Assembly: GCF_905475395.1 (NCBI RefSeq)
Contig: NC_058342.1
Coordinates: 6,731,501 to 6,795,500 of the forward strand
DNA: 64,000 bases
Direction of reading: 5' to 3'
Origin: Chrysoperla carnea
Lineage: Eukaryota; Arthropoda; Insecta; Neuroptera; Chrysopidae
Below the pieces are notes generated by a model, which did not search any database, was not told where the DNA came from, and worked only from the letters and a program-made list of their open reading frames with translations. The translations under genes and the position numbers were made by a program. This document shows, one piece after another, positions 17,811 through 60,700 of this stretch. The first letter of the stretch is position 1. Each line of letters starts with the position of its first letter.

Positions 17811-18636
17811 GTAACAATTCAAGATGAACATAGTAATGAAAATCTACCAATTAAGAAGAAAATGTTAAACATGAACAAATGCATTCAGAGTATATTGTTA
17901 TATTACTCTTTTGGTATGGTCCAGGGAAGATGCTGCCACCACCTGATTGTTTATTGTGAAGGATTAATCAGGAAAATCCTTGTAGGATAATAACCAACAC
18001 TTTTGATTTCTCTTAAAACGAATATTTAATTTCACTAATAATACTGTTGTATTTGATTATAAATATTTTGTTGATTTCAATTTAGCTTGATCATCAAGGT
18101 TAAATATTTACTGCATTCTTTTACGATGTTACTTCAAGTTGTATAATCACTGCATAGATGTTGTTTAAGTTTGTATAATCACTGTATGATTCTAATCAAT
18201 TTCCAATGTCTTAAATACAAAATTTGTAGGTCAAAATATTAAATATTTTGACGTAAAAATTAAAATATTAAATGTTAATTTTGCTGACAAGTAAATATAA
18301 TTAGAACCATTCTGCTAATATAAATTAGACCTCAATTCAATTATTACGATATTACAATATTTAAAATTAGGTTGTTAATAAAATGATTACTTAATAATGA
18401 TATGAATGATTTAGTGTGATAGAACCACGTTTTTAAGGATAACGCTGTCCAGGGCCTAACAATATAATTAAAGATGAAATATTTGAAGAATCTTACTCAT
18501 GTGAACAAGATACCAATATAAATTTACATCTAATCGACGCCGAAAATATTCAATGTGAATCATTTCACTCAGCAACATTCGAAGAAGAACAAATTCATTC
18601 ATATTCGTGTAATTTATGTGCGAAAACATTCACAAA

Positions 18637-18723
18637 CAAAGATATTGTAATAGTATAGATGGAACCAAACATATTGTAATAGTATAGATGGAACCAAAGA
18701 TATTGTAATAGTATAGATGGCAC
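18637..18723 (+). repeat. Three tandem copies of the 29-bp P-like left terminus
   Basis: Units at 18637-18665, 18666-18694 and 18695-18723 are nearly identical; the first and third begin CAAAGATATTG and the second CAAACATATTG. Single copies of the family at 37362-38626 and 46149-55027 have one unit only, so the terminal repeat was amplified here. Confidence 0.8.
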
Positions 18724-18868
18724 ATAGGCAACGAGTATACGTTTCCGTGTAGCCGACCAAAGACGATGAATATTGCCACTGTATTCAATTTCAATCGACC
18801 ACTGACCAGTGAACATCTCAAGTAAATTTACATATTTCGTGTTTAAAATTGTAATTTTTTGTTATAAA

Positions 18869-19670
18869 ATGGTTTCGTGCAGTGTGAAATCTTGTAATAT
18901 TTAGGGTGTAAACTCGAAAAATAAGTAATTTACAAAAAGTAAGTACAAAAATATTTTTACCATTTTTTTATCCGCCATATTCGTTAATATATAATATACT
19001 GTCATTATTTGTCAGTTTACCAGGTACGGATTATCGAACTTTTTTTAAAATTTTGTTTTATTATTTTCATGTTTATTTCTTAAAATTTTTATAACTGACA
19101 ACTTTGATATAAGATTTATTATAAGAAAATAAAAGAATATTTTACGGGATAGAGAATCAAGTTATTTTTTTGGCTTTTTGGTTGTTTTGGAAAATGTTAA
19201 AGTTTTTCATTTCATAATAATATATTTATATTTGTCGAAACTATGTCATGAAAAATCTGTTTAACTTGTATGTTAAATATAAAATACACAAATCCTTCCA
19301 AAAAATTATTAATATATTAATACGAATTCACAATAAATTTAAAAAATGTTAACTAGAGACAGTTTAATCGTTATCGTTTTCATATAGCATAAGTAATATG
19401 ATAATTGTAAATTTTATCATGGGCATAACAATTTAAATAATGTGATAGTATCTAATAAATACATTTTTTTTTTGTAGATTTCCACGTGATCTTCGGAAAA
19501 AAAGGGTGTGGGTTGCAAAAACTATGAACGCCGATAGTTGGATACCAACAAAAAGTAGTGTGATTTGTTCACTACACTTTGAAGAAAAATATTTTTACTT
19601 ATCTACAAAATGTTGCCGTTTGCTCAACGCTCATGCATTAAATAAAATAATTATTTTTCAAGAAAAATAA
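18869..19670 (+). pseudogene. THAP-domain gene, unit A (stop in exon 1)
   Basis: Exon 1 starts MVSCSVKSCN at 18869 but meets TAG after the next codon. Exon 2 (19478-19670), after an acceptor TTTTTTGTAG, is intact: FPRDLRKKRVWVAKTMNADS, then SVICSLHFEEKYF and NAHALNKIIIFQEK. It keeps the C-x2-H pair and the HF dipeptide typical of THAP domains. Exon 1 also lacks the codons for IDGVIC found in unit B. The premature stop breaks the zinc-binding C2CH unit. Confidence 0.75.
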
Positions 19671-20122
19671 AAATATTTAAAAAAATGTATAAATTTTATT
19701 ATTTTTTAAAAGATATCCCTTAAATTCTTCAATTATTCCTTAACAGTTCACTCACAAAATTTATATTTTTAATTGAACTAAATAATTTAATCTAAAATTA
19801 CTCTGAGTACTTCGCTGTACAAAATAATACGTCATGCTTTCCTTACCATAGATTCTTACTTCGTTTTCTACCGCACCAAAGCGCATAAGACGGCTTCATT
19901 GGTTTCTTAACATTTTAATACTGTATAGCATCTGTATAGTTCATCTCTACTATTATTTTATCTATGGATGGAACATAGGCAACAAGTATATGTTTCCGTG
20001 AAGACGACAAAAGATGATGAATAGTGTCACTGAATATTAGTATACAATCGACCACTGACCAGTGAACATCTCAAGTGAATTTACATATTTCGTGTTTCAA
20101 ATTGTAATTTTTTTGTTATAAA

Positions 20123-20885
20123 ATGGTTTCGTGCAGTGTGAAATCTTGTAATAATAAGGGTGTAAACTCGAAAAATAAAATTGATGGTGTAATTTGCCAT
20201 AAGTAAGTACAAAAATATTTTTACCATTTTTTGATCCGCCATATTTGTTAATATATAAAACACTGTCATTATGTGTCAATTTACCAGGTACGGATTATCG
20301 AACTTTTTTTAAAATTATGTTTTATTATTTTCATGTTTATATCTTAAAATTTTTATTACTGATGACTTTGAAATAAGATTTATTATAAGAAAATTAAGTT
20401 ATTTTTTACGGGATAGAGAATCAAAGTAATTTTTTGGCTTTTGGGTTGTTTTGTAAAATGTAAAAGTTTTTCATTTCATAATAATATTTGTCGGAATTAT
20501 GTCATGAAAAATCTGTTAAACTTGTATGTTAAATATAAAATGCAAAAATCCTTCCAAAAAATAATTAATATATTCACACGAATTCACAGTAAATTTAAAA
20601 AATGTTCACTAGAGACAGTTTAATCGTTATATAATGGGCATAACATTTTAAATAATGTGATAGTATCTAATAAATAATATATTTTTTTGTAGATTTCCAC
20701 GTGATCTTCGGGTAAAACGTGTATGGGTTGCAAAAACTATGAACGCCGATAGTTGGATACCAACAAAAAATAGTGTGATTTGTTCACTACACTTGGAAGA
20801 AACATATTTATATTTATCTACAAAAGGTCGTCGCTTGCTCAACGCTCATTCATTAAATAAAATAATTATTTTTCAAGGAAAATAA
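20123..20885 (+). CDS. Intact two-exon THAP-domain protein, unit B (about 90 residues)
   Basis: Exon 1 (20123-20202) reads MVSCSVKSCNNKGVNSKNK, then IDGVICH, and ends two bases into a codon at a strong donor (GTAAGT). Exon 2 (20693-20885) follows the acceptor TTTTTTTGTAG, completes that lysine codon and continues FPRDLRVKRVWVAKTMNADS, WIPTKNSVICSLHLEE and RRLLNAHSLNKII to TAA 20883-20885. The product is one THAP zinc finger and nothing else: C4-x4-C9, then C-x2-H, with the conserved FP, W, P and the C-terminal L-x3-A box position. THAP domains are the site-specific DNA-binding part of P-element transposases. A DNA-binding domain with no catalytic core could compete for element ends as a repressor, but that is inference. 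It lies inside the P-like element in the same orientation. HL replaces the more usual HF of unit A. Confidence 0.7.
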
Positions 20886-21265
20886 AAATATATAAAAAAA
20901 TTGTATAAATTTTATTATTTTTTAAAAGATATCCCTTAAATTCTTCAATTATTCCTTAACAGTTCACTCACAAAATTTATATTTTTAATTGTACTAAATA
21001 ATTTAATCTAAAATTACTATGAGTACTTTCCTGTAAAAAATAATACGTCATGCTTTCCCTACCATACGTTCGTTCTTACTTCGTTTCCTACCCACCATAC
21101 CACATAAAACGGCTGCATTGGTTTCTTAACATTTTAATACTATATAGTCCATCTCTACTATTATTTTATCTATGTTCACAAAACACCCGAATTTTACTAA
21201 GCATCAAAGGATTCACGCTGGAGATAGATTTTCATATTCATATTCATGATTTTCATATTCATGGA

Positions 21266-25805: not shown

Positions 25806-28800
25806 CCCTTATGGAAAAAATAAACTGTTACAAAGTCATACAAAGTTTAAATAAGAGTTTTTAAAGTCTTACTTTCTCTTACAAACTCTGAAAAAGTCTT
25901 ATAAACTCTGAATAAGATCTAATAAGACGTAAAAGTAGGAATTATTCTATCTTTTCGGCCGCTGCCAGAAGAGTTATTCAGAGTTAATAAAACTTACTAA
26001 AAGAGTTAGTAAGACTTTTTCAGAGTTTTTAATACTTAAAAAAAGTTTTGAATAATTTTTTGAGGCTGTAAAAAGAATCATTCCGACTTTTTAAAACTTT
26101 CAATAGTAAATTTATAGGCTATAAAAAGGGATTAGTAAGAGTTTTTAGTACTTAAAAAAAGTATTTTATAAAAATGTCAAAAGAATTAGTAAGAGTTTTT
26201 AATACTTAAAAAAAGTATTTCATAAAAATGTCAAAAGAATTATTCAGAGTTTTTCTGACTTATTTTCTATATTTATTAAAATTTTTTGCGAATTACATTA
26301 TAATTATTATTTCAGTTATCGTTGTCATTATAAATTCGTCATGTGAAACTTAAATATCCAGTAACAAATTATTTTGCAACACAGGCAAAATAATTTGTTA
26401 CTGGATATTTAAGTTTCACATGACGAATTAATAATGACAACGATAACTGAAATATTTTCAAATATAAATATAATCAATCGCAGTTCAAACGTTTAAGGTA
26501 ATAAATTTGAAGAAATAATTAAAAACAAATTTTTATTTTTTCTATTTATTTTTACAAAGTTTTTTTTTTACATTTTTTAAATTATAAAATCTTTTTTTAG
26601 GAGTGCTTATTGTGCGCTGTTTTTGAATATTAATTTTTTTGTTTGGTTTTACAAACTTTTGAAGCTTATATTAATATTTTTTAAATCTATTTACTATCGC
26701 TTTAATTTTATTCATTCCTAATTATCATAAATAAATAAATTATTAATTAGAACATAAAAGTTACATAATACTTTACGAGCAATTATTGCACGCTGTTCAA
26801 TGGACGATATTACTTTTTTGTTTGATTATGACAAAAACTTGCAACTTATATTAACTTTTTTTAAAACAATAAATTAAAAATTATTAACATAAAAACATAA
26901 ATAATATCTTACGAGCAGTAATTGCACTCTTTATATCCCTTTTATCAAATTGGTCATTTTCAAACACTGTGTCATGACCTGTGACAAAATGACCAATTTG
27001 GTACAAAACATATGTCACCAAAAAAAATTACATTTTTAAATAGTTAAAAATACAGTGATGTCTTTTAATTGTTTAAAAAATATATATTTTAATAAATCGG
27101 TGGAATAATAAAATAATTAATTAAAACATGTTCCACAAAATAGAATTTTTTAGAGAAAATACAATTTTATAGAAAAATTGATCAAAAATAATTGACTGGA
27201 TAATTTTTAAAATTCAATAAAATTTGAAAGCAAATTTTCAAAAAAATCAATTATATAATTTTTATTATTATCAATAATTATTAACTATCAATTGTTTTTG
27301 TCAATCTTTTTTAGATGAAAATTTTTAAAATCAATCATTCAAAAACGGTTTGAAATCAACGTCTAAAATTTACTGTTCAATTTAGATACTACAAAATCAC
27401 AAAAAAAAATTGTAAATTTAAGAGAATTCGTACCTTTCGGATTTCAGATCCGAACTAATTTTCTTTTGTTGGTTTGTTTCTTCAGTAGATTTCGTTTTGA
27501 TAGAGACGATTTTCTTCTGTCGTGTATCTCTTCTTCTCGGCTTTCGTAAACTGTTTCAAGTTCAACGAATAAATTGTACTAAAATTTTTAAAATATGTTA
27601 GCAATGCAAATTTTACAGAAAAAATTTTCGAGCTTTTTATATAAAAATGCCACCAGGTTACCTTCATATTTGTTTAGTTTTGTATTTTATTTTATTTAGA
27701 GCCAATATTAATATATTATAACACTTAACTGATATGCTCTCTGTACACAAGTGTTTAGTGTTATGTCTTGTTGTGTGCGACACTTCATGACTTCACCACC
27801 CACCCTTCTTTAAATCTGTTGTACAGTTTTATATAAATATACTTAATATTAAGTACGTTCCTTCCTATAACCTATTGTAAAATAAAGTATGTTCAGCATG
27901 GATTAATCATATCTACCAATTTTTACATGTTTAGTTTTATAAAATTGCCCACAACCTCTTAAAACCAAAATTTAAATAAAAAAAAAACAAGTGAAAACAA
28001 ACAAATGACTGAATCAATTTTTGAAATACCATGTACATACTATGTATATAATTTGCGCCCTCAAGGGTAAATAGTGAAGTTTACGAAAAAATGTTTCAAA
28101 CAAAAGTTGTTAATTTTTTTATAAGGAATATTTTTTACACTTTTGTTCAATCTATAACGACTTAAAATATTGATCTCTGGACTCAAGACCCAATTTTTAC
28201 ACCTCACTTTTTACGTCCTAAAAACAATATTGTTGTCATTCGCAGCCCATAACTGAAAAATTCTAGGAGTTATTAGAAATGTGCAGTAAATACTGTTATT
28301 TACAACATATTTGCAAAATAATGTTTTTACTTTTGGGCAGTAAATTTTATATTATATTGGCAATTGTTGTTGCTTAAGTGATAATTAGTTTCTCCTTATT
28401 TGTCGATTACAGTGTTCTCGATTTAATTATAAAACTTACAGTGATTGTTAAAATTTATTATGCATTGATATGAAAATTTTTGAGAATTTGTATTTTAAGA
28501 TTTCTCTAACATATTTTATTTTATCAACAATATAAAAAAAGACGTGTCGTGAGCACCCGGTAGGAAGTATGCCACTTTTGTTTTAAGTTATGCTATATTG
28601 AAAAACAAGCTAAATGAAGGGAGGATGGTAATAAAATTGTATTTAATAATTTTCATAGGGTCTGAAAATTTTTATTTTTGAAAAAAAATATTTTTTGAAA
28701 AATTTAAATAACAAACGTCTTCTTTATGAATACAAATATCATAGAATATGGTTTATTAATATTCGAAAATAATTATATTTACTGTTAAATATATTTCACA

Positions 28801-31800
28801 AAAGTTTTGAAATGAAATTAGTTATTTCACTTCATAAAGTAAATGTACATATGATATAATGGTGGCTAATACAATAATATTTTTACAAGATTATTCTGGT
28901 CAAACTTAAACATACACACATGTGGTTACTTTAACAAATATGATTCATGTTTTACAAGATTTTCTGTTAAAATATTATTATTTAAAATAAATAAAACATA
29001 AATTTTATTTTTGAGGATTGATAATAAATATTCAACAAAGTGCACTCAAAAAACTCTGATTTAGATTTTGGTTTTTGCCAAAATTATTATTTTTGTTTAT
29101 TTAAAAAATAAGTAATTGAAAAAAAAATTAAGTTCAGAAAGTATTATTTAGTATGTAAATGAAATGTACAAAGTATAGGAGAAATCGGTCCGAATATTTT
29201 CGACTACCGATTTGACAACCGAAAAAGTTTTGAGAAAAACTTAATTAAAGTTTGATACACAAATAAAACTGAAAAAAATACATATAAAAATACATTAATG
29301 AAATAAAGATTAAAAAAGCGCCCGGAGACTATTTGGCTTCTAATGACTTGAAAGGTTGTTAAATGGAGAGTGTTCTTAGCTATATTTCAAATGCGAGTTT
29401 AGAATTCTGAACACAAAAAAAAAAAAAAAAAAAAGAAATTAGCGATGAACTTCAAAATCGGCTAAGTTGGCTTCAAATGACTACAAATTTTCAGAAAACA
29501 AAAAATTTTATTCCAGTTTCAAAATATATAAGAGAATCGATTATCAGACCCTATGAAAATTGTATTAAAAAAATTATTAAATACAATTTTATTACCATCC
29601 TCCCTTCATTTAGCTTGTTTTTCAATATAGCATAACTTAAAACAAAAGTGGCATACTTCCTACCGGGTGCTCACGACACGTCTTTTTTTATATTGTTGAT
29701 AAAATAAAATATGTTAGAGAAATCTTAAAATACAAATTCTCAAAAATTTTCATATCAATGCATAATAAATTTTAACAATCACTGTAAGTTTTATAATTAA
29801 ATCGAGAACACTGTAATCGACAAATAAGGAGAAACTAATTATCACTTAAGCAACAACAATTGCCAATATAATATAAAATTTACTGCCCAAAAGTAAAAAA
29901 ATTATTTTGCAAATACGTTGTAAATAACAGTATTTACTGCACATTTCTAATAACTCCTAGAATTTTTCAGTTATGGGCTGCGAATGACAACAATATTGTT
30001 TTTAGGACGTAAAAAGTGAGGTGTAAAAATTGGGTCTTGAGTCCAGAGATCAATATTTTAAGTCGTTATAGATTGAACAAAAGTGTAAAAAATATTCCTT
30101 ATAAAAAAATTAACAACTTTTGTTTGAAACATTTTTTCGTAAACTTCACTATTTACCCTTGAGGGCGCAAATTATATACATAGTATGTACATGGTATTTC
30201 AAAAATTGATTCAGTCATTTGTTTGTTTTCACTTGTTTTTTTTTTATTTAAATTTTGGTTTTAAGAGGTTGTGGGCAATTTTATAAAACTAAACATGTAA
30301 AAATTGGTAGATATGATTAATCCATGCTGAACATACTTTATTTTACAATAGGTTATAGGAAGGAACGTACTTAATATTAAGTATATTTATATAAAACTGT
30401 ACAACAGATTTAAAGAAGGGTGGGTGGTGAAGTCATGAAGTGTCGCACACAACAAGACATAACACTAAACACTTGTGTACAGAGAGCATATCAGTTAAGT
30501 GTTATAATATATTAATATTGGCTCTAAATAAAATAAAATACAAAACTAAACAAATATGAAGGTAACCTGGTGGCATTTTTATATAAAAAGCTCGAAAATT
30601 TTTTCTGTAAAATTTGCATTGCTAACATATTTTAAAAATTTTAGTACAATTTATTCGTTGAACTTGAAACAGTTTACGAAAGCCGAGAAGAAGAGATACA
30701 CGACAGAAGAAAATCGTCTCTATCAAAACGAAATCTACTGAAGAAACAAACCAACAAAAGAAAATTAGTTCGGATCTGAAATCCGAAAGGTACGAATTCT
30801 CTTAAATTTACAATTTTTTTTTGTGATTTTGTAGTATCTAAATTGAACAGTAAATTTTAGACGTTGATTTCAAACCGTTTTTGAATGATTGATTTTAAAA
30901 ATTTTCATCTAAAAAAGATTGACAAAAACAATTGATAGTTAATAATTATTGATAATAATAAAAATTATATAATTGATTTTTTTGAAAATTTGCTTTCAAA
31001 TTTTATTGAATTTTAAAAATTATCCAGTCAATTATTTTTGATCAATTTTTCTATAAAATTGTATTTTCTCTAAAAAATTCTATTTTGTGGAACATGTTTT
31101 AATTAATTATTTTATTATTCCACCGATTTATTAAAATATATATTTTTTAAACAATTAAAAGACATCACTGTATTTTTAACTATTTAAAAATGTAATTTTT
31201 TTTGGTGACATATGTTTTGTACCAAATTGGTCATTTTGTCACAGTGTTTGAAAATGACCAATTTGATAAAAGGGATATAAAGAGTGCAATTACTGCTCGT
31301 AAGATATTATTTATGTTTTTATGTTAATAATTTTTAATTTATTGTTTTAAAAAAAGTTAATATAAGTTGCAAGTTTTTGTCATAATCAAACAAAAAAGTA
31401 ATATCGTCCATTGAACAGCGTGCAATAATTGCTCGTAAAGTATTATGTAACTTTTATGTTCTAATTAATAATTTATTTATTTATGATAATTAGGAACGAA
31501 TAAAATTAAAGCGATAGTAAATAGATTTAAAAAATATTAATATAAGCTTTAAAAGTTTGTAAAACCAAACAAAAAAATTAATATTCAAAAACAGCGCACA
31601 ATAAGCGCTGCAAAATAATTTGTTACTGGATATTTAAGTTTCACTTGACGAATTTATAATGACAACGATAACTGAAATATTTTCAAATATAAATATAATC
31701 AATCGCAGTTCAAACGTTTAAGGTAATAAATTTGAAGAAATAATTAAAAACAAACTTTTATTTTTTCTATTTATTTTTACAAAGTTTTTATTTTTACATT

Positions 31801-37345: not shown

Positions 37346-37361
37346 TGACTTATGTTGCTCG

Positions 37362-38626
37362 CATAGATAAAATAATAGTAGAGATGGACCATACAGTATT
37401 AAAATGTTAAGAAACCAATGAAGCCGTCTTATGCGGTATGGTGCGGTAGAAAACGAAGTAAGAATGTATGGTAGGGAAAGCATGACGTATTATTTTGTAC
37501 AGCGAAGTACTCAGAGTAATTTTAGATTAAATTATTTAGTTCATTAAAAAATATAAATTTTGTGAGTGAACTGTTAAGGAATAATTGAAGAATTGGAGGG
37601 ATATCTTTTAAAAAATAATAAAATTTATACATTTTTTTTATATATTTTTATTTTTCTTGAAAAATAATGATTTTATTTAATGCATGAGCGTTGAGCAAAC
37701 GGCGACCTTTTTTAGATAAATAAAAATATTTTTCTTCAAAGTGTAGTGAACAAATCACACTACTTTTTGTTGGTATCCAACTATCGGCGTTCATAGTTTT
37801 TGCAACCCACACCCTTTTTTTCCGAAGATCACGTGGAAATCTACAAAAAAAAAAATGTATTTATTAGATACTATCACATTATTTAAATTGTTATGCCCAT
37901 GATAAAATTTACAATTATCATATTACTTATGCTATATGAAAACGATAACGATTAAACTGTCTCTAGTTAACATTTTTTAAATTTATTGTGAATTCGTATT
38001 AATATATTAATAATTTTTTGGAAGGATTTGTGTATTTTATATTTAACATACAAGTTAAACAGATTTTTCATGACATAGTTTCGACAAATATAAATATATT
38101 ATTATGAAATGAAAAACTTTAACATTTTCCAAAACAACCAAAAAGCCAAAAAAATAACTTGATTCTCTATCCCGTAAAATATTCTTTTATTTTCTTATAA
38201 TAAATCTTATATCAAAGTTGTCAGTTATAAAAATTTTAAGAAATAAACATGAAAATAATAAAACAAAATTTTAAAAAAAGTTCGATAATCCGTACCTGGT
38301 AAACTGACAAATAATGACAGTATATTATATATTAACGAATATGGCGGATAAAAAAATGGTAAAAATATTTTTGTACTTACTTTTTGTAAATTACTTATTT
38401 TTCGAGTTTACACCCTAAATATTACAAGATTTCACACTGCACGAAACCATTTTATAACAAAAAATTACAATTTTAAACACGAAATATGTAAATTTACTTG
38501 AGATGTTCACTGGTCAGTGGTCGATTGAATACTAATATTCAGTGACAATATTCATCGTCTTTGGTCGGCTACACGGAAACGTATACCCGTTGATTATGTC
38601 CCATTTATACTATTACAATATCTTTG
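37362..38626 (-). mobile_element. P-like THAP element, single copy C
   Basis: The ends are CATAGATAAAATAATAG and the inverted CAAAGATATTGTAATAG. The flanks GTTGCTCG (37354-37361, 38627-38634) are a perfect 8-bp target duplication. Its 1265 bp are the reference length of the family. On the minus strand the THAP gene has exon 1 from 38450 (MVSCSVKSCN, then a stop as in unit A) and exon 2 from 37840 with CSLHFEEKY. It sits just after the tail of the I-like LINE. No transposase core. Confidence 0.9.
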
Positions 38627-38634
38627 GTTGCTCG

Positions 38635-45539: not shown

Positions 45540-46140
45540 GTAAAATTACTAATTAAACTTTGCTGATTGTCCTCGAAAAAAAATAACGTTTTACTATTGC
45601 ACCTTTAGGCCATTTATTTTGGCCATATATATCTTTCTGCAATGTAGGATCAGAACCAATACGAAAGCTTTCAAATTGACCTTTGCTTTCCAAACAATCC
45701 ACAAGAAATTCATGACCTGGATATGTTTCATTTAAAAAGTTCTTAACATTTGTCACGCTTGTTTTTTTGGTACAGCGTCCCAAGAAAACCCACACTTTAG
45801 ATTCAGCAAATTGGAGTTCTTGCGATTGTGGTCCATTTCCTCTTACAGGTTGTTGCCGTTTCTTTTTATATCTTACAGTGGTAAATCCATCTTCATCATC
45901 ACCAGATTCAGGTTTGCTCAATTCAGTTAAGTTCTGCTCCGTTTCTGTATCATCTGCATTGTTTATTATTTTCGTACGATTTGACCTTTGTTGTTTGTTT
46001 TTATTTTGTTTATTATTATTTTGTGTTGACAAATTTTGTTTACTTTTAGCCTGAGTATTGCCATCATTAATGTTTATGTTTTTGATGACAGATGAGTTGC
46101 TAGTTGTTGCCACTGGGTGGACTAGCTTCAACAATTGTAG
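45540..46140 (-). pseudogene. ORF1 of the outer LINE, main part
   Basis: The minus strand reads DNLQLLKLVHPVATTSN at the transposon junction, then an asparagine/lysine-rich linker, DGFTTVRYKKKRQQP, KVWVFLGRCTKKTSVTNVK, HEFLVDCLESKGQFESF and WPKGAIVKRYF. The final domain is of the kind found at the end of ORF1 in jockey/CR1-group elements, which coats element RNA. The frame shifts at VKRYFF: the other frame continues FEDNQQSLISNFTINKPN. The N-terminal part lies beyond the P-like insertion, at 55036-55115. Confidence 0.75.
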
Positions 46141-47228
46141 GTTATCAGCATAGATAAAATAATAGTAGAGATGGACCATACAGTATTAAAATGTTAAGAA
46201 ACCAATGAAGCCGTCTTATGCGGTATGGTGCGGTAGAAAACGAAGTAAGAATGTATGGTAGGGAAAGCATGACGTATTATTTTGTACAGCGAAGTACTCA
46301 GAGTAATTTTAGATTAAATTATTTAGTTCAATTAAAAATATAAATTTTGTGAGTGAACTGTTAAGGAATAATTGAAGAATTGGAGGGATATCTTTTAAAA
46401 AATAATAAAATTTATACATTTTTTATATATTTTTATTTTTCTTGAAAAATAATGATTTTATTTAATGCATGAGCGTTGAGCAAACGGCTTTTTTAGATAA
46501 ATAAAAATATTTTTCTTCAAAGTGTAGTGAACAAATCACACTACTTTTTGTTGGTATCCAACTATCGGCGTTCATAGTTTTTGCAACCCACACCCTTTTT
46601 TCCGAAGATCACGTGGAAATCTACAAAAAAATGTATTTATTAGATACTATCACATTATTTAAATTGTTATGCCCATGATAAAATTTACAATTATCATATT
46701 ACTTATGCTATATGAAAACGATAACGATTAAACTGTCTCTAGTTAACTCTAGTTGTCTAAGTTGGTACCCAGTCGTCATTGAGTAAAGACGTGTTTTATA
46801 TGCCCTGATCTTTTAAACAAATTTTAAGTTAGTTTTTATTTTATAATTTTAGTTTAGTGTTTTAAGTGCAAAATATTTTTTAAATATTGTGGTGATAAGT
46901 GTTAAAATCACTTTATTAATGATTAATGATTAAGTGATTTAAAAAAAAAAAAAAAATCTGTGACAGTTAAACCATAGTGTAAAATGGCTTCATTGTGTTA
47001 AATAAATATTTAATTCTGATGTGATTCACGTTTATCGTAAGCAAGGAACTCAAAAAAGGAAACGTAACTTCTTTTTGAATATAGAATATTCTCAGCGAAT
47101 AATTTCGATAGTTTTGAATACGAAAAATCGTAAAACAAATAAGTGGCCAGTTTTAATAATTCTTAAAAAAAAAACGTACTTTCACAAAAGAACTCGGTGG
47201 CGCAGTTAGTAAGGTCGTGAAACCAATT

Positions 47229-49419
47229 TATTTATTTATTTATTTATTATAAACGGGCAGCTAACCCTTTACAAGTATAATTAGTATGTACATAAATAAA
47301 AATAATTAAAATATAAAATATAGAAATACAATAAATTTAGGAATAAAATAAATACAATAATTTAAAAAAAAATGATATAAATATCTACAATAAATACAAT
47401 AAAAATTGTTATAAAATATAATTTAAAAGAACAAAAAAAATTTGTATATATAAAATAAAAGAAAGTGAAAACTTATACATTAAAGCAATGAATTTTAGTG
47501 CTATGGCTAAGAATTATTATTTTGTATACTTCTCTTAAATGTATATAAATTTTGTTGAAAAAAATCAATGGAATCACAAAAGTTATTGGCATTACGCATT
47601 ATTCTATTAATTGGTTTGTGAAATAAATAATTACTTTTGGCAAATGGAATATTAAATAATTGATTTTTTCTTAAGTTCACATTAGGAACATTTAAATTAA
47701 TTAAATTTAAGAGGTAGGAACTGTCTATTGTATTGTTAAGTAATTTATATAGAAATACCATATCAGCTGTATCTCGTCTTTTACTCAACAAATCAATTGA
47801 AAATCTACTGTACAACTCCTCATAATTATGGTCGTCAAATGTATAGCCAAGTCTGAAACCAATCATTCTCAAAAATTTTCTTTGTACGCTTTCAATTCTG
47901 TCGATGTAGCATTCATAGTGCGGGGACCAAACTAATGTACCATATTCTAAGATAGGACGAACTAATGCAAGATACAAGGTAAGTAAAACGTTCATGTCTG
48001 TAAAGTTAGAAGAAGTTCTAAAAATAAAGCCTAGCATTCGATGCGCCTTTTTACAGGTGGTATCGATATAATGAGCAAAGGACAAATCATGACTCATAAT
48101 TACACCTAGATCTCGCACCTTCTCATACCGAGCCAGTGTGTGACTATTAATTGTGTAGGGATTGAAAATTGGGGATTTGTTTTTATAATAACTAACGATG
48201 GAACATTTGGAGTAATTCAAATATAATTGATTAATTTCGCACCAGTTATCTAATTGATTAATGCAGTTTTGAAGAATTGCACAGTCATTATCAGAGGAAA
48301 TAGGCAAAAATAATTTAAGATCGTCTGCGAATAACAGAAAGGAGCAACGTTGTAAGAATGGTTTGATATCGTTAATATATAACAAAAAAAGGTACGGTCC
48401 AAGATGTGAACCTTGGGGTATTCCTGAAGTTGCTAAATAGATAAAAGAAGAAGAAGATTCCAAATTAACGAATTGCCGTCTTCCACTTAAATAACTGGAT
48501 GTCCAGTCCAATAATGGGCCGGAGAAACCATAGGCTTGGAGTTTGGAAATAAGGATATTATGGTTTACTTTGTCAAACGCTTTACTAAAATCCGTGTAAA
48601 TGACGTCCAATTGATTGCCTCTTTCAAATGCATTAAGAACTTCGTTTTGAAATATTAAGAGGTTTGTATTAGTTGAGCGTCCTTGAGTAAAACCATGCTG
48701 TTCCGAGATTATAATATTTTTGAAAAATGGAGTAATAAAATCCAACACGCAACTTTCAAAGATTTTCGCAATTGTAGATTGAATTGTGATTGGGCGATAG
48801 TTACGAACGTCAGATTTATTGCCAGATTTATAAAGTGGTACAACTCTACTTATTTTTAAGCAGTCAGGAAACACACCAGTTGCAAGAGAATAGTTGAAAA
48901 GGTATGTAAGAGGATTGACTAAGATTTCAGCAAGATTTCTTAGTAACAGAGGAGCGATATTATCAGGACCTGGCTTCTTATTCACATCTAAAGAATTTAG
49001 CTTTTTATAAATAATTTCTGGAGATATATAGCATGAGTTAATATTAACAGATGAGGGGTAACTGAAATTCGGATTTGTATTTGCTGCAGTTTCATAAACA
49101 GAAGAGAAATTAGCTGCGAACAAGTTGACTATACCTTGACGATCATCGGCAGTTACATTATCTAAATACATATGATTTGGTATTCCTCCTGATTTTTTGA
49201 GTTTATTAACAAAATTCCAAAAGTAACTTATATTTTGAGGAATAGATTGTTGTACTAAATCAATATAAGAGTTATGGTGTTGTTTTACCAATAATTTACA
49301 GGCTTTTCTAGCTTCAGTAAAGAGATCATAATAACGAATTGAATTGGTTTGTTTGTAAAGCTTATGGTATATTTTTTTATTTGAAATAGCTAATTTAAGT
49401 TCCCTAGAAAACCAATCAG
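47229..49419 (-). mobile_element. Innermost LINE, 5'-truncated, minus strand
   Basis: The 3' tail at 47229-47245 is TATT repeats, that is (AATA)n on the minus strand. The flanks AACCAATT (47221-47228, 49420-49427) are a perfect 8-bp duplication. It starts in the linker before the reverse transcriptase, with the frame open from the junction. The frame is uninterrupted to its stop, so it is the youngest layer. Its protein differs from the outer LINEs, and its tail is AATA rather than AAT, so it is a different family. Confidence 0.9.
47507..49416 (-). CDS. Reverse transcriptase of the innermost LINE
   Basis: About 636 open codons from the truncation (DWFSRELKLAISNKKIYHKL) to TAA at 47507. Motifs in order: KKPGPDNIAPLLLRN, VRNYRPITIQSTIAKIFES, SEQHGFTQGRSTNTNLL, YTDFSKAFDKVNHNIL, SGIPQGSHLGPYLFLLYIND and the catalytic LLFADDLKLFLP. 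Then LGVIMSHDLSF and RPILEYGTLVWSPHYECYID close the C-terminal part. The enzyme would copy element RNA into DNA. All palm motifs are intact. There is no endonuclease or ORF1, because the copy is 5'-truncated, so it cannot move alone. The SKAFDKVNH and LVWSP motifs are of the jockey/CR1 kind; exact clade not assigned. Confidence 0.9.
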
Positions 49420-49696
49420 AACCAATTGTGCATATCGCAGAGTTACTGGTGATCGGAGGTTCGAGTCCGACTGGTGTTAGTTTTATTTTTTAATCATCTC
49501 AATATTATCAAACTTTAAAAATAGTGTTATTAAACCAGAAACTGTTGTTTATAAAATATACATTCGTGATTTAACTATTGTTTATTCTACTTAAAAACAC
49601 TGTAAACTACAACCCATTATCCCAAATAGCGTTAAGCATTGCTTGATAACAATAAATCAATACTACCTTTACAAGTGAACTTGAAATACTCCCAAA

Positions 49697-50488
49697 ATGA
49701 CAAATGCAGATATACTAAAGGCCATTGCGGATTTGAAGAATGATTTGAAAAATGATGTGCAAAATGTTAGTGAAAAATTAGACAAAAAATTCGAAGAATT
49801 GAAATTAGCGCAAACTAATTTAAAAGAAAAGGTAAAATTATTGGAACAAAAAGTTGAAAATTTAGAATCAACAAATCGTAAGAAAAACTTAATAATCTAC
49901 GGTTTAATTGATATAAGCCATTATACAAATGTTATGGAAGAACAAATAATATCATTCTTTAACATTACGCTGAAAGTTAATTGTACAATAAAAGACATTG
50001 ATTTTATTCGGAAACTCAGACCAAGTGGAGATAGCTCTAAATGTCCTATTATTGTTGGTTTTGTGTCATGGCGAATAAAAATCCAGATTCTGGAAAACCG
50101 AAAACTATTGAAGGGAACGTCCATTTATTTATCTGATGATCTTTCGCCAGCAGCTCGTCAGAAAAGGAAAGATTTAATACCTTATATGGTACAACTTCGT
50201 AACGAAGGGAAGCAAGCAGTTATCAAACAAGATAAGCTGTTTGTAAATGGCCAAAATATAAATATGGATGAACTAAAAATGGAATATAATTTAAAAAAAC
50301 GACCACTATCATCGGAAGAAAAAAGCTACGAAGACCACAAAATTAACAACCAAGTAAACAAGAAAGTAAGCAAACATATTTTTAGAGCATCAACTTTAGA
50401 TCAGTTCATACGGCCGAGATCTAACTCTATCGGTAATGATAACCAGGCAAAACCCCAAAGCAGCCTGGCGTTACAACCTACGCAATAG
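49697..50488 (+). CDS. ORF1 of the third-level LINE (coiled-coil RNA-binding type)
   Basis: 263 residues from ATG 49697. Residues 10-60 form a lysine/glutamate-rich coiled coil (SEKLDKKFEELKLAQTNLKE). The junction motif STNRKKNLIIYGLIDIS leads into an RRM-like fold (ITLKVNCTIKDIDFIRKLRP, PIIVGFVSWRIKIQIL). A basic region follows (SDDLSPAARQKRKDLIPYM). The same motif is found in the relic at 4669-4995. Such ORF1 proteins form trimers on element RNA and may act as chaperones. The frame is intact; ORF2 starts soon after its stop. It has no CCHC knuckles, unlike jockey/I-type ORF1. Confidence 0.85.
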   Translation: MTNADILKAIADLKNDLKNDVQNVSEKLDKKFEELKLAQTNLKEKVKLLEQKVENLESTNRKKNLIIYGLIDISHYTNVMEEQIISFFNITLKVNCTIKDIDFIRKLRPSGDSSKCPIIVGFVSWRIKIQILENRKLLKGTSIYLSDDLSPAARQKRKDLIPYMVQLRNEGKQAVIKQDKLFVNGQNINMDELKMEYNLKKRPLSSEEKSYEDHKINNQVNKKVSKHIFRASTLDQFIRPRSNSIGNDNQAKPQSSLALQPTQ

Positions 50489-50530
50489 CAATCCAACTTG
50501 AAACTTTTACAAACTGGGAATGGAAGCAGA

Positions 50531-53500
50531 ATGATTGGAGAAAGTGATGAACTAAAGGACAAAGTAAAATTTATATTTTGGAACTGTAATGGAATAAATA
50601 ACTTTTTAAATTTAGATACTAAACAACAACAATATTTTAAAAACTGTAGTGTTATAGGACTGAGTGAAACATGGCTATGCAGAAATTTTAGAAATGACTT
50701 TAAATTAAAAGAGGAATATCATTGCTATGAGGTGCAAGCTGTTAAGGAAAAACAGTTCGGAAGACCAAGTGGAGGGTTGATATTGTTAGTAAATAAGTCT
50801 ATTAATACGGAGTTGATAGATTCTTCTAATCTATGGATTGCAGTAAAAGTAAATTTAACAGGTTGTAATTATATTTTGATCTTTGTATATTTTAAGCCTA
50901 GTTATGATGTGGGTGTGGTGATAGATTTACTAAATGATTTGTTGAGTTTAATAAGTACAAACTATCGAGATACAGCAATTATTATTGCGGGGGATATGAA
51001 CTGTAGGATTGGCACATTGGGTCAAGAACATGGCGAGATTTTTGATTGTACACTTTTGAACAAAAACAGAAAATCTCAAGATATAGTCAATCGAAGAGGT
51101 ATAAAACTCAACGAATTTTTTGAGAGTTCCAATTTTTATGTTATAAATGGTAGAAGTAGGTCGGACCCAGAAGGACAGTTCACGTTTTTCAATACAAACG
51201 GAAACAGCGCTGTGGATCTCGTATGGGGAAATGATCTGGCTTTGGTTGAAGTTATAGATTTTGCAATTACAGACATTGTTTTAACGTCAGATCATTTACC
51301 TTGTATGCTGATCATCGACAGCACTGTTTCCAGTAGTAGAAGCAAGCGTAGATATAGTAAAATTAAAAGCTTTAAGTGGAATGAGGAAAAAGTTTCGTCA
51401 TACTTAGAATTGCTCAGAGAATCTCAATGGCCAACCTTGCACTCAGCAACACAGTTTTATCAGACTATGGTTACTAATATAACGAATGTAGCCACTAAAC
51501 TCGATATGTGCAATGAAAAAACTATTATCACTACAAGCTCAGGGGAAATATTAAAAAATAAAAATAAGATATGGTTTGACAAGGAATGTCAACAACTAAA
51601 AGTAACCCTAAAAAATAACTTCAAACTAGCAAAAACCACAAACTTTTCCCTAACGATTACAAAACTATATGTAGAAAGTAAAAAAAGGTACAAAGATACT
51701 ATAAAGGCCAAGAAAGAAGGATATTTCCAAGCTATTAAAGATAACCTTATTAAGTCCAGGGATAGTAAGGAATTTTGGAGTATTCTTAAACAATTTCGAT
51801 ATAAAGGTAATTTATCAAACATAAACCCTATACATATAGATCAGTGGAATCAGTATTTTCAAACTTTGTATCCTCCAAGTATTATAAATGAACACACCTT
51901 TTTTGATGCCCACCATCCATACCTAGATGTCGAAATCGCTGCTGAAGAGCTTCAAGCCGCATTACGACAAATTAAAAGGGGTAAAGCTCCCGGCCCAGAT
52001 GGTTTAACAAACGATTTCCTTAAAAATTTACCTGAAGTAGCTGAGACTCACTTATTAAATATGTTAAATCTAGCCTTCGAAAATGAAAAGTGCGGTGAAA
52101 ATTGGACCAAGTTAAAACTTAAACTGTTATTTAAAAAGGGTAACACTCAAAAACCCGAAAATTATAGGGGTATTGCTCTGTTAAATGCAATCACGAAAAT
52201 TTACACAAAAATTCTCAGCAACCGACTCCTTACTTGGGCGGAAGAAGCGCAAATATTACCCGAGCATCAAGGGGGTTTTAGGAAAGGAAGGGGATGCCAA
52301 GACAATATATTCATTTTGACAAATTTAGTTCAATCACACATTAGACAACCTAAACGAAAAGTTTATGCATGCTTTATTGATCTTAAAAAAGCTTTTGATA
52401 AAGTAGAACATTCCCTCTTATGGGATAAATTGTACTCGCTGGGTATTAGCAGAAAAATTGTGTCGATATTAAAAGATATGTACATTAACGCCAAAATGAT
52501 CGTTGATCTTGGAGATCCTGAAAATACCTTAAACATACATATCACACAGGGAATATTGCAAGGAGATTCCTTGAGTCCCCTTCTATTCATTTTGTTTATA
52601 GCCGACTTAGACAGTTACTTCCAGACAAATGGAGCGACAGGAGTTAGTCTCAACGGGCAATTAGAAATTACTCATCTACTGTATGCAGATGACTGCACAA
52701 TATTCGGAGACTCGCCTATAAATCTCCAAAGAAATCTGAACTTTTTCGAAAAATATTGTAACAAGAATAAGTTACAAATTAACATCCCAAAAACAAAAAT
52801 TGTAGTCTTCAGAAAAAAAGGAAAGATTAAGCAACAGAAATTTTATCTTTGCAATGAACTAATAGAAGTTGTGAATAGATTCGTCTACTTGGGCTTCCCC
52901 TCCACTAGCCCAAGCTTATTCCTAGAATCATTGAATACATTTACAAAAAAAGCAAATTCAGCAATTGGTTGTGTACGGGAAACATTAGTCAGGTCACAAT
53001 CAACTTTATGGGATACAAAGCTGAAACTTTTAAATTCTATAGTTGTAACTACTTTACTCTACTGTGCCGAAACATGGAGTTTGCGTTACCTTGAAGGGCT
53101 GGATAAAATTCAAAGCAATTTTATCAAGAGCATTATGTGCTTACCGCGAAGCACACCACACTATATGCTGAGATCGGAAACGCAAGAGCACACATAGGAT
53201 CGCAAGCATTAAATTTAATTTTAAATTGGTGGATTAAGATGCTGAATGCACCCAGTGCGAAACTTACCAAAGTGAGTTATTTAAGAATGGCGGAGCTAGA
53301 TAAGAGTCCTGATAATGTTCATAAGCTTAATTGGGCCACCCAACTTAAGAAAATTGTTACTGATCTAGAATATGGTTATACTTGGGAAGAACAGAATGCA
53401 CGGTCAATTAAGCAATTAAAACAAGAAATAATACAAAGTTATATAAATAAAATTCGAGCAAGGGATGAAAATAAAATCTTAGAATCTAATTATAACTTAA

Positions 53501-53886
53501 ATTATAAATATTTTCATCCACCCAATACCTCTTCATACCTTGAGCTAGATATACCAATTGATAAAAAAAGAGTCATTTTCCAGATGCGCGTTATAAATAA
53601 GAACCATATCAGAATATGCACAAGAGGTATAGTTTATAGATGGGATTCAGAATTGAAATGTGGGATGTGCAATTTGGATGAATTTGATACCTTAGATCAT
53701 TTTCTGCATAGATGTCCAATTCTAAAATCTTTAAGGGATCAATACATTTCAAAATACAGAAAACATACAAATGTAATAAATATAACAGCATCTTTGCTTG
53801 ATAACCTCAGCATCTCCAAAATAAATGATATTTATTTCTATACTATCAACGCGCTTAAATTGAGAAGTTTTGTTTTGTCTGAGTAG
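50531..53886 (+). CDS. ORF2 of the third-level LINE: AP endonuclease plus reverse transcriptase, one frameshift
   Basis: The first ATG is 50531 (MIGESDELKDKVKFIFWNCN); the open frame itself begins at 50498. Endonuclease: FIFWNCNGINN, VIGLSETWLC, IIIAGDMNCRIG and TSDHLPCMLI, so the catalytic N, E, D and H residues are present. Reverse transcriptase: RGKAPGPDGLTNDFLKN, PENYRGIALLNAITKIYTK, HQGGFRKGRGCQDNIFIL, FIDLKKAFDKVEHSLLW, ILQGDSLSPLLFILFIADLD and LLYADDCTIF. Near 53150 the frame shifts: the first frame ends at 53195, while the next (from 53137) carries on with EIGNARAHIGSQALNLILNW. Near the end CGMCNLDEFDTLDHFLHRC is a Cys-His cluster. It would nick target DNA and prime copying of the element. 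A single indel separates it from an intact gene; a sequencing error is possible. Confidence 0.9.
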
Positions 53887-54046
53887 AAAACACTTTCGAT
53901 CCGCCTATAAACTGTATCTTCAGAATATTTTAATGCATTTATATACATTATATGATTATTAATTGTTACTGTTGTTTACTGTTATTATTTAAATTGGTAT
54001 TATTATTGTTATCCACTCATTTTTGCTCTCAGTCTTAGAATCGTAA

Positions 54047-54345
54047 TCCCACATTATTAGCGATTTTTTTTTTATTGTTATTATTATTGTTATTATTACT
54101 GAAGCTATTTTTCTTATTGTTATTGTTATTATAATTGTTATTATTATTGTTATTATTCTGGTTCTTGTTTTCTTTTACATCTGTTATTGTTATTGTTATT
54201 GCTATTGTTATTGTTATTATTACTATTGTTCTTATCAGTATTATTATTACTATTGTTAATTGCTCTTTTCTCTCTTCTTTCTCTGTTTTGTGTACCAATC
54301 ACCTGTAATAACCATGGGTTTAAATACAGTATTATTATTATTATT
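54047..54345 (+). repeat. TTA/TTG-rich simple repeat and tail at the LINE 3' end
   Basis: Interrupted TTATTG/TTATTA units from about 54070 to 54260, then a short unique piece, then TTATTATTATTATTA directly before the 17-bp duplication. This is expanded tail sequence, not coding, although the reverse strand translates as asparagine and isoleucine runs. Confidence 0.8.
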
Positions 54346-55035
54346 AACTGTCTCTAGTTAACATTTTTTAAATTTATTGTGAATTCGTATTAATATATTA
54401 ATAATTTTTTGGAAGGATTTGTGTATTTTATATTTAACATACAAGTTAAACAGATTTTTCATGACATAATTTCGACAAATATAAACATATTATTATGAAA
54501 TGAAAAACTTTAACATTTTCCAAAACAACCAAAAAGCCAAAAAAATAACTTGATTCTCTATCCCGTAAAATATACTTTTATTTTCTTATAATAAATCTTA
54601 TATCAAAGTTGTCAGTTATAAAAATTTTAAGAAATAAACATGAAAATAATAAAACAAAATTTTAAAAAAAGTTCGATAATCCGTACCTGGTAAACTGACA
54701 AATAATGACAGTTTATTATATATTAACAAATATGGCGGATAAAAAAATGGTAAAAATATTTTTGTACTTACTTTTTGTAAATTACACCATCAATTTTATT
54801 TTTCGAGTTTACACCCTAAATATTACAAGATTTCACACTGCACGAAACCATTTTATAACAAAAAATTACAATTTTAAACACGAAATATGTAAATTTACTT
54901 GAGATGTTCACTGGTCAGTGGTCGATTGAATACTAATATTCAGTGACAATATTCATCGTCTTTGGTCGGCTACACGGAAACGTATACCCGTTGCCTATGT
55001 TCCATCTATACTATTACAATATCTTTGGTTATCAG

Positions 55036-57714: not shown

Positions 57715-60700
57715 CCCTTATGGAAAAAATAAACTGTTACAAAGGCATACAAAGTTTAAATAAGAGTTCTTAAAGTTTTACTTTCTCTTACAAACTCTGA
57801 AAAAGTCTTATAAACTCTGAATAAGATCTAATAAGACGTAAAAAGTAGGAATTATTCCATCTTTTCGGTCTCTGCCAGAAGAGTTATTCAGAGTTAATAA
57901 AACTTACTAAAAGAGTTAGTAAGACTTTTTCAGAGTTTTTAATACTTAAAAAAAGTTTTGAATAATTTTTTGAGGCTGTAAAAAGAATTATTCCGACTTT
58001 TTAAAACTTTCAATAGTAAATTTATAGGCTATAAAAAGAATTAGTAAGAGTTTTTAATACTTAAAAAAGTATTTTATAAAAATGTCAAAAGAATTAGTAA
58101 GAGTTTTTAATACTGAAAAAAAGTGTTTCATAAAAATGTCAAAATAATTTAATTTCATACTTATTTTCTATATTTATTAAAATTTTTTGCGAATTACATT
58201 ATAATTATTATTTCAGTTATCGTTGTCATTATAAATTCGTCATGTGAAACTTAAATATCCAGTAACAAATTATTTTGCAACACAGGCAAAATAATTTGTT
58301 ACTGGATATTTAAGTTTCACATGACGAATTTATAATGACAACGATAACTGAAATATTTTCAAATATAAATATAATCAATCGCAGTTCAAACGTTTAAGGT
58401 AATAAATTTGAAGAAATAATTAAAAACAAATTTTTATTCTTTCTATTTATTTTTACAAAGTTTTTTTTTTTTACATTTTTTAAATTATAAAATCTTGCAA
58501 TGTTTTTGAATATTAATTTTTTTGTTTGGTTTTACAAACTTTTGAAGCTTATATTAATATTTTTTAAATCTATTTACTATCGCTTTAATTTTATTCATTC
58601 CTAATTATCATAAATAAATAAATTATTAATTAGTAACATAAAAGTTACATAATACTTTACGAGCAATTATTGCACGCTGTTCAATGGACGATATTACTTT
58701 TTTGTTTGATTATGACAAAAACTTGCAACTTCTATTAAATTTTTTTAAAACAATAAATTAAAAATTATTAACATAAAAACATAAATAATATCTTACGAGC
58801 AGTAATTGCACTCTTTATATCCCTTTTATCAAATTGGTCATTTTCAAACACTGTGACAAAATGACCAATTTGGTACAAAACATATGTCACCAAAAAAAAT
58901 TACATTATTACATTTTTAAATTGTTAAAAATACAGTGATGTCTTTTAATTGTTAAAAAAATATATATTTTAATAAATCGGTGGAATAATAAAATAATTAA
59001 TTAAAACATGTTCCACAAAATAGAGCTCCAAAACATAAGAATAATTTAATACATTTTATAATACAAGAAATAATTTTTATTTTTATTTGTAAATATAATT
59101 CAGTTAAATAAAAATACAATTTTATAGAAAAATTGATCAAAAATAATTGACTGGATAATTTTTAAAATTCAATAAAAATTGAAAGAAAATTTTCAAAAAA
59201 ATCTATTATATAATTTTTATTATTATCAATAATTATTAACTATCAATTGTTTTTGTCAATCTTTTTTAGATGAAAATTTTTAAAATCAAATCATTCAAAA
59301 ACGGATTGAAATCAACATCTAAAATTTACTCTTCAATTTAGATACTACAAAATGACAAAAAAATTGTAAATTTAAGAGAATTCGTACCTTTCGGATTTCA
59401 GATCCGAACTAATTTTCTTTTGTTGGTTTGTTTCTTCAGTAGATTTCGTTTTGATAGAGACGATTTTCTTCTGTCGTGTATCTTCTCGGCTTTCGTAAAC
59501 TGTTTCAACGAATAAATTGTACTAAAATTTTTAAAATATGTTAGCAATGCAAATTTTACAGAAAAAATTTTCGAGCTTTTTATATAAAAATGTCACCAGG
59601 CTAGCTTGATATTTGTTTAGTTTTGTATTTTATTTTATTTAGAACCAATCTCTTATAACACTTAATGACCAGCATACATACGTACTCGTACTGTAACAGT
59701 CTCTGTACACAATGTTTTTACCGATATATTCTCTGCAAGTGTTGTGTCTTTGTGTGTACCACACTTCACCACCCTATAATAACCATTCAATCTCATTCAA
59801 TGTACAGTTTTATATAAATAGTTAAAGTACGTTCCTTCCTATAACCTATTGTAAAATAAAGTACGTTCAGCATGGATTAATCATATCTACCAATTTTTTT
59901 TAAACAAGTGACTATTTTTACATTTTTAGTTTTATAAAATTGCCCACAACCTCTTAAGACCAAAATTTAAATAAAAAAAACAAGTGAAAACAAACAAATG
60001 ACTGAATCAATTTTTGAAATACCATGAACTTACTATATAATTTGCGCCCTCAAGGGTAAACAGTGAAGTTTGCGAAAAAATGTTTCAAACAAAAGTTGTT
60101 AATTTTTTTATAAGGAATATTTTTTACACTTTTGTTCAATCTATAACGACTTAAAATATTGATCTCTGGACTCAAGACCCAATTTTTACACCTCACTTTT
60201 CCGTCCTAAAAACAATATTGTTGTCATTCGCAGCCCATAACTGAAAAATTCTAGGAGTTATTAGAAATGTGCAGTAAATACTGTTATTTACAACATATTT
60301 GCAAAATAATTTTTTTACTTTTGGGCAGTAAATTTTATATTATATTGGCAATTGTTGTTGCTTAAGTGATAATTAGTTTCTCCTTATTTCTCGATTACAG
60401 TGTTCTCGATTTAATTATAAAACTTACAGTGATTGTTAAAATTTATTATGCATTGATATGAAAATTTTTGAGAATTTGTATTTTAAGATTTCTCTAACAT
60501 ATTTTATTTTATCAACAATATAAAAAAAGACGTGTCGTGAGCACCCGGTAGAAACTATGCCTCTTTCTTTTTAAATTATGCTATATTGAAAAACAAGCTA
60601 TGAAGGGATGGTAATAAAATTGTATTTTATTACCATCCCTTCAATTGGATACACGACAGAAGAAAATCGTCTCTATCAAAACGAAATCTACTGAAGAAAC

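Follow-up and report, generated by a model that had tools for sequence, protein, structure and literature searches.

What is a THAP finger doing in a short element with terminal inverted repeats (TIRs)? Four such elements lie in the stretch of the Chrysoperla carnea genome analyzed here (64 kb; the window), and an earlier reading made from the sequence alone described them as a P-like family that carries only a THAP domain, whose product might repress the element that encodes it or might be a captured domain used by the host. We asked what the ends, the insertion sites, and the reading frames of the copies say about the THAP gene and about the origin of the family. The four copies are likely to be a nonautonomous deletion derivative of the KP or P-MITE kind, probably from the P superfamily, that was moved in trans and holds the THAP exons as relics.

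Copies, ends, and insertion sites

A blastn search of the 64-kb window with one copy (c2) as the query recovered four copies, c1 to c4, and none besides at E ≤ 1e-3. They measure 1229 to 1272 bp, c2 and c4 being measured minus the DNA nested in them. Pairwise identity is 99.1% between c3 and c4, 98.1% between c1 and c4, and 97.9% between c1 and c3. The c1 copy is a mosaic: it is identical to c3 over 684 nt, but its first 100 alignment columns include 12 that differ and its last 91 include 15, gaps counted. When THAP peptides were used as tblastn queries, just matches at E ≥ 1.8 were returned from outside c1 to c4. A 26-base pattern from exon 2 had no match in viral and prokaryote contigs, in a search whose output may omit near records. 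The literature searched (THAP and P deletion forms, self-insertion, Neuroptera, and the C. carnea genome) held no title on this family.

Two of the copies are on the minus strand, c3 at 37362 to 38626 and c4 at 46149 to 55027. The 8.9-kb span of c4 is due solely to the insertion of a LINE (endonuclease/RT; 46748 to 54345, plus strand), which measures 7,598 bp between 17-bp duplications, AACTGTCTCTAGTTAAC, or 7,615 bp counting one duplication, and which has a second RT-coding element nested within it. The RT ORF of this inner element occupies 47507 to 49489 on the minus strand; tRNA-like A- and B-box letters seem to flank the element, and ARAGORN found no tRNA. Elsewhere in the window, a giant, foldback-like inverted repeat (26979 to 28653 and 29570 to 31244) has 1675-nt arms that are 100% complementary, with 916 nt between them. 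A second, related foldback-like unit (58424 to 59482 and 60648 to 61706) has 1059-nt arms that are 98% complementary, and stretches of the two units are 98 to 99% alike.

The remaining two copies, both on the plus strand, had been described as side-by-side units at 18637 to 19966 and 19967 to 21174. Their junctions revealed a different arrangement, in which c1 (18695 to 19966) interrupts the left TIR of c2, and c2 consists of 18637 to 18665 plus 19967 to 21174. The order is TTCACAAA, a 29-bp left TIR ending in GATGGAAC, a second 29-bp unit, c1, GATGGAAC with the remainder of c2, and TTCACAAA. The left TIR end of c2 (18637 to 18665, plus strand) is therefore separated from the body and right TIR (19967 to 21174, plus strand), which begin with the second GATGGAAC. 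Because this 8-bp sequence is duplicated exactly around c1, at 18687 to 18694 and 19967 to 19974, c1 must have inserted into the left TIR of c2, or into that of another copy at this place. The extra 29-bp unit (18666 to 18694, plus strand) comprises 21 bp of TIR and GATGGAAC. It points to either a second insertion at the same site, the body of which would have been lost, or a tandem slip or duplication. Tandem duplication as the source of the c1-c2 pair itself was rejected, since the two copies of GATGGAAC abut c1 precisely on either side.

The perfect 8-bp duplications noted earlier at the outer ends were confirmed at all three outer insertions and extend to the nested c1, so that four of four insertions have them. 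Copy c2 lies between TTCACAAA at 18629 to 18636 and its partner at 21175 to 21182, c3 between GTTGCTCG at 37354 to 37361 and 38627 to 38634, and c4 between GTTATCAG at 46141 to 46148 and 55028 to 55035. Given the base composition, an 8-bp match would arise by chance with a probability of about 6e-5 per pair; the figure is 6e-5 to 1.3e-4 over all window starts at the same spacing.

Reconstruction of the empty sites in silico gave a second view of these insertions. Removal of c1 and c2 plus one TTCACAAA left a frame that is open and encodes a canonical C2H2 finger, CNLCAKTFTKHPNFTKHQRIH (Pfam zf-C2H2, E = 1.7e-4; 22.3 bits, under the curated cutoff of 25.2). Removal of c4 plus one GTTATCAG rejoined a LINE reading frame of 226 amino acids (aa) from the first Met. 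Pfam returned no match to this rejoined frame at E ≤ 0.01, and its assignment to a LINE is based on RT frames farther downstream, which lie on the same strand as it does. Frames are thus restored at two of the three outer empty sites, which argues for true insertion into older sequence; the c3 site is silent, all six frames having stops close to the junction. The C2H2 frame interrupted by the c1/c2 pair (18443 to 18636 and 21183 to 21249) ends soon past its one finger and is possibly a pseudogene. The older LINE frame that was the target of c4 (45553 to 46148 and 55036 onward, minus strand) gives a nesting order of LINE, P-like element, LINE, and RT element.

The sequence-only reading counted four units with shared TIRs. 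The number of copies stands, but its first two units are c2 interrupted by c1, and the TIRs are imperfect. They are approximately 30 bp long with CA...TG ends, and across the four copies, 20 to 22 of the first 27 and 22 to 25 of the first 31 positions match. The right-end motif has four exact matches in the window, all at copy ends. Away from these, two matches with three mismatches occur, where chance alone would give 1.44. All five matches to the left-end motif in the window fall within c1 to c4. Subterminal inverted repeats in c2, c3, and c4 were not above the level of shuffled sequence; some short palindromes are present in the copies, including CACTGACCAGTG near the left end.

The THAP frame of c2 and its public record

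An intact gene with strong splice sites had been placed at 20123 to 20885, and our analysis bears this out: the c2 frame has no interruption, and its splice sites are a GTAAGT donor and the acceptor TTTTTTTGTAG. Exon 1 (20123 to 20202, plus strand) encodes residues 1 to 26 and two bases of Lys27. The 490-bp intron (20203 to 20692, plus strand) splits this codon in phase 2 (HK^FP), and exon 2 (20693 to 20885, plus strand) runs to the stop codon of a predicted 90-aa product. This product (MVSCSVKSCNN...SVICSLH...) matches the Pfam THAP family (PF05485, E = 1.6e-10) over profile positions 1 to 76 of 87, and C4, C9, C57, and H60 are arranged in the C2CH pattern. Residue 61 is Leu in c2 and Phe in c1, c3, c4, and human THAP1. 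The 11 unmatched positions at the end of the profile are in the region of the AVPTIF motif, which PMC6402169 speculates to be the carboxy-terminal boundary of the THAP domain. The frame stops at residue 90, directly past the THAP region, and is without a leucine zipper or other dimerization part.

Only one relative of the c2 product with a length of 50 to 157 aa was found among 5.8 billion proteins. It is a 74-aa record named "THAP domain-containing protein 6-like [Chrysoperla carnea]," with 100% identity over 79% of the query. Exons at 20123 to 20202, 20693 to 20826, and 20929 to 20939 of the window reproduce this record exactly, indicating that the c2 copy is already annotated as a gene. The record fits an extra intron (20826/20929) by which the THAP frame would lose its last 19 residues, and transcripts may or may not underlie this model. 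A structure prediction of the 74-aa protein had a mean pLDDT of 35.5 and was set aside. Longer relatives at E ≤ 10 were found neither among 8 candidates of 112 to 357 aa nor among 11 candidates of 357 to 1135 aa.

Coding state of the copies and selection

Each unit had been said to carry the same two-exon gene. THAP exons are indeed present in all of the copies, but c2 alone is open throughout. The other three have a common TAG at codon 12, which we took as derived, since an ancestral gene that worked could not have had a stop within the domain. A 10-bp deletion in exon 1 is common to c1 and c3, in which exon 2 is still open, and exon 2 of c4 has 1-nt and 4-nt deletions. The splice signals are kept in four of four copies, which is little evidence in copies so alike. 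Since copies have spread with a broken THAP gene, the THAP product is not needed in cis.

In none of three comparisons with c2 did the divergence of the THAP exons differ from that of the rest of the element. Exon and non-exon divergence from c2 were 21 of 263 versus 73 of 948 sites for c1 (Fisher P = 0.90), 20 of 263 versus 71 of 951 for c3 (P = 0.90), and 19 of 268 versus 60 of 946 for c4 (P = 0.67); these three comparisons are not independent, c1, c3, and c4 being near relatives, and have low power. The sequence-only reading had suggested computing dN/dS across the THAP exons. The values, from counts that exclude the stop codon and gapped codons, were 0.80 for c1 (5 synonymous and 16 nonsynonymous differences from c2), 0.76 for c3 (5 and 15), and 0.81 for c4 (4 and 13). 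They are near neutral and give no sign of retention. Nonsynonymous differences accounted for 16 of 21, 15 of 20, and 13 of 17 (0.75 to 0.77), versus 0.80 (standard deviation, 0.09) in a neutral simulation that uses the substitution spectrum of the c2-c3 intron.

Simulated frames, with indels not counted, were free of stops in 49% of cases after 10 substitutions and in 24 to 27% after 20, the former figure corresponding to the assumption that half of the differences (approximately 10 substitutions) arose on the c2 branch. One open copy among four is unremarkable. The THAP exons appear to be passengers under no visible selection, and with just about 20 exon differences and a dN/dS below 1, weak selection on them may also be compatible with the data.

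Origin of the family

The copies have 8-bp duplications, TIRs of about 30 bp with CA...TG ends, and an N-terminal THAP domain, all of which are features of the P superfamily, and they retain both THAP exons along with the 5' end and a short 3' end. In these respects, the earlier description of a P-like, THAP-only family was a fair one, but no P transposase, with its HTH, split RNase H, and GTP-binding insertion, was found, either in protein searches with THAP words or in the copies themselves. Ten non-THAP pieces of c2 and c3, out of 69 stop-to-stop pieces, matched no transposase family; two chance-level matches, to Ovate (E = 0.16) and TcpC-like_C (E = 0.045), were both below the cutoff. Because no autonomous parent was seen, we infer the deletion origin and the P assignment, the latter from the THAP exons, the 8-bp duplications, and the ends taken together. 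The ends, the duplications, the nesting, and the identity of c3 and c4 in turn imply a need for a cut-and-paste transposase acting in trans.

These considerations suggest a history in which an autonomous element, probably of the P superfamily, would have undergone an internal deletion that left two THAP exons and terminal DNA. The resulting copies would have been cut and pasted by transposase made elsewhere, and a version with the nonsense codon 12 would have given rise to the three most alike copies (c1, c3, and c4). The c2 frame would be open through age and chance and, if transcribed, would yield a THAP fragment of 74 to 90 aa without a dimerization or catalytic part. Counted against a deletion relic are the open exon 2 in c1 and c3, the kept splice signals, and the public protein record for c2.

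The gene structure of c2 raises the alternative that an element with TIRs captured exons 1 and 2 of a cellular THAP gene, in which case the domain would not derive from the element's transposase. Intron 1 of human THAP1 follows c.71 (PMC4049367). By the residues of the THAP1 structure chain, this intron falls at Lys24 before Phe-Pro, and the c2 intron is in the same place, in phase 2 of the Lys codon before Phe-Pro. In its exon layout, the c2 gene is thus like a cellular THAP gene. Further, of the four solved structures that match the c2 product at E ≤ 1, none is a P transposase chain; by name they are THAP2, THAP1 (two sequences), and THAP11. The intron position may, however, be ancestral to both cellular THAP genes and P elements, and the THAP gene sits at the 5' end of the copies, where a P transposase would sit. 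All known P proteins have an N-terminal THAP domain (PMC1562414), which also makes descent simpler than capture. We regard capture as unlikely.

Another possibility is that a different superfamily that makes 8-bp duplications, such as hAT, moved the copies. The duplications and CA...TG ends would be compatible with this. P transposases are not alone in having THAP domains, which are found in that of Kolobok, for example. Moreover, the resemblance of the c2 and c3 TIRs to the TIR of the Drosophila P element, letter by letter, does not exceed the level of shuffled ends (left ends, 6 for c2 and 5 for c3 versus 10 shuffled; right ends, 11 and 10 versus 10). hAT transposases usually have a BED finger, and Kolobok duplicates TTAA. 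The combination of a THAP domain with an 8-bp duplication fits P best, and involvement of another superfamily seems decidedly improbable.

Could c2 nevertheless encode a repressor, with its THAP finger expressed, bound to the TIRs or subterminal sites, and blocking the transposase as KP does? Its frame is open, its splice sites are good, and it has a public protein record. Repression by KP has been documented (PMC4938643), and purified MBP-fused 90-aa THAP domains of Galileo, both consensus and ancestral, bind Galileo TIRs (PMC3688188). Several features of c2 run counter to this role: the Leu61 where c1, c3, c4, and human THAP1 have Phe, the last 11 THAP profile positions unmatched, the last 19 residues missing from the public record, and the lack of room for a dimerization part. 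With near-neutral divergence and exon 1 dead in three of the four copies as well, the earlier proposals of a self-encoded repressor or of a captured domain in use are unsupported, and we consider a repressor very unlikely. A composite scheme is very unlikely as well: captured cellular THAP exons would be transcribed from the intact c2 to give a THAP-only protein, a competitor of a P-like transposase at the element ends, and nesting would have tied two copies into a larger unit.

As deletion derivatives, the copies can be compared with known systems. KP and other internally deleted P elements of Drosophila are similar in retaining both ends and N-terminal coding sequence without catalytic parts, and in their 8-bp duplications. 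The leucine zipper of KP was reportedly the subject of work by Andrews and Gloor in 1995. In contrast to KP with its zipper, c2 has a frame of only 90 aa and an intron-split domain, and three of the four lacewing copies are dead. KP is 207 aa long (PMC7776569), and deleted P elements of Drosophila that encode repressors are known (PMC7776569 and PMC4938643).

The P-MITEs of Anopheles gambiae (PMC1562414) are nonautonomous P relatives, as the lacewing copies would be, and likewise have 8-bp duplications and recent bursts; c1, c3, and c4 are near identical. The P masters of this species have TIRs of 27 to 32 bp with up to 8 mismatches (6 and 8 in two clades). The central region of P-MITEs is unlike any P element, whereas c1 to c4 keep recognizable THAP exons. 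Zebrafish Pdre2 and deleted Pdre elements (PMC10983969) resemble the lacewing copies in having CAT at one end, 8-bp duplications, and internally deleted relatives. Pdre2 differs in its 13-bp TIRs and its 12-bp subterminal inverted repeats, the latter being a feature not above shuffled level in c2, c3, and c4. The lacewing copies fit among known deleted P relatives, and the THAP-only remnant is their particular feature.

If the THAP product were active after all, c2 would encode a very small self-encoded repressor, under half the 207 aa of KP. If instead the copies are deletion derivatives with relic exons, an open frame in such a derivative would by itself be no evidence of a repressor, and the C. 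carnea record "THAP domain-containing protein 6-like" would describe a relic of a transposon, not a gene of the host. The copies would then add a description of a P-like nonautonomous family in a lacewing.
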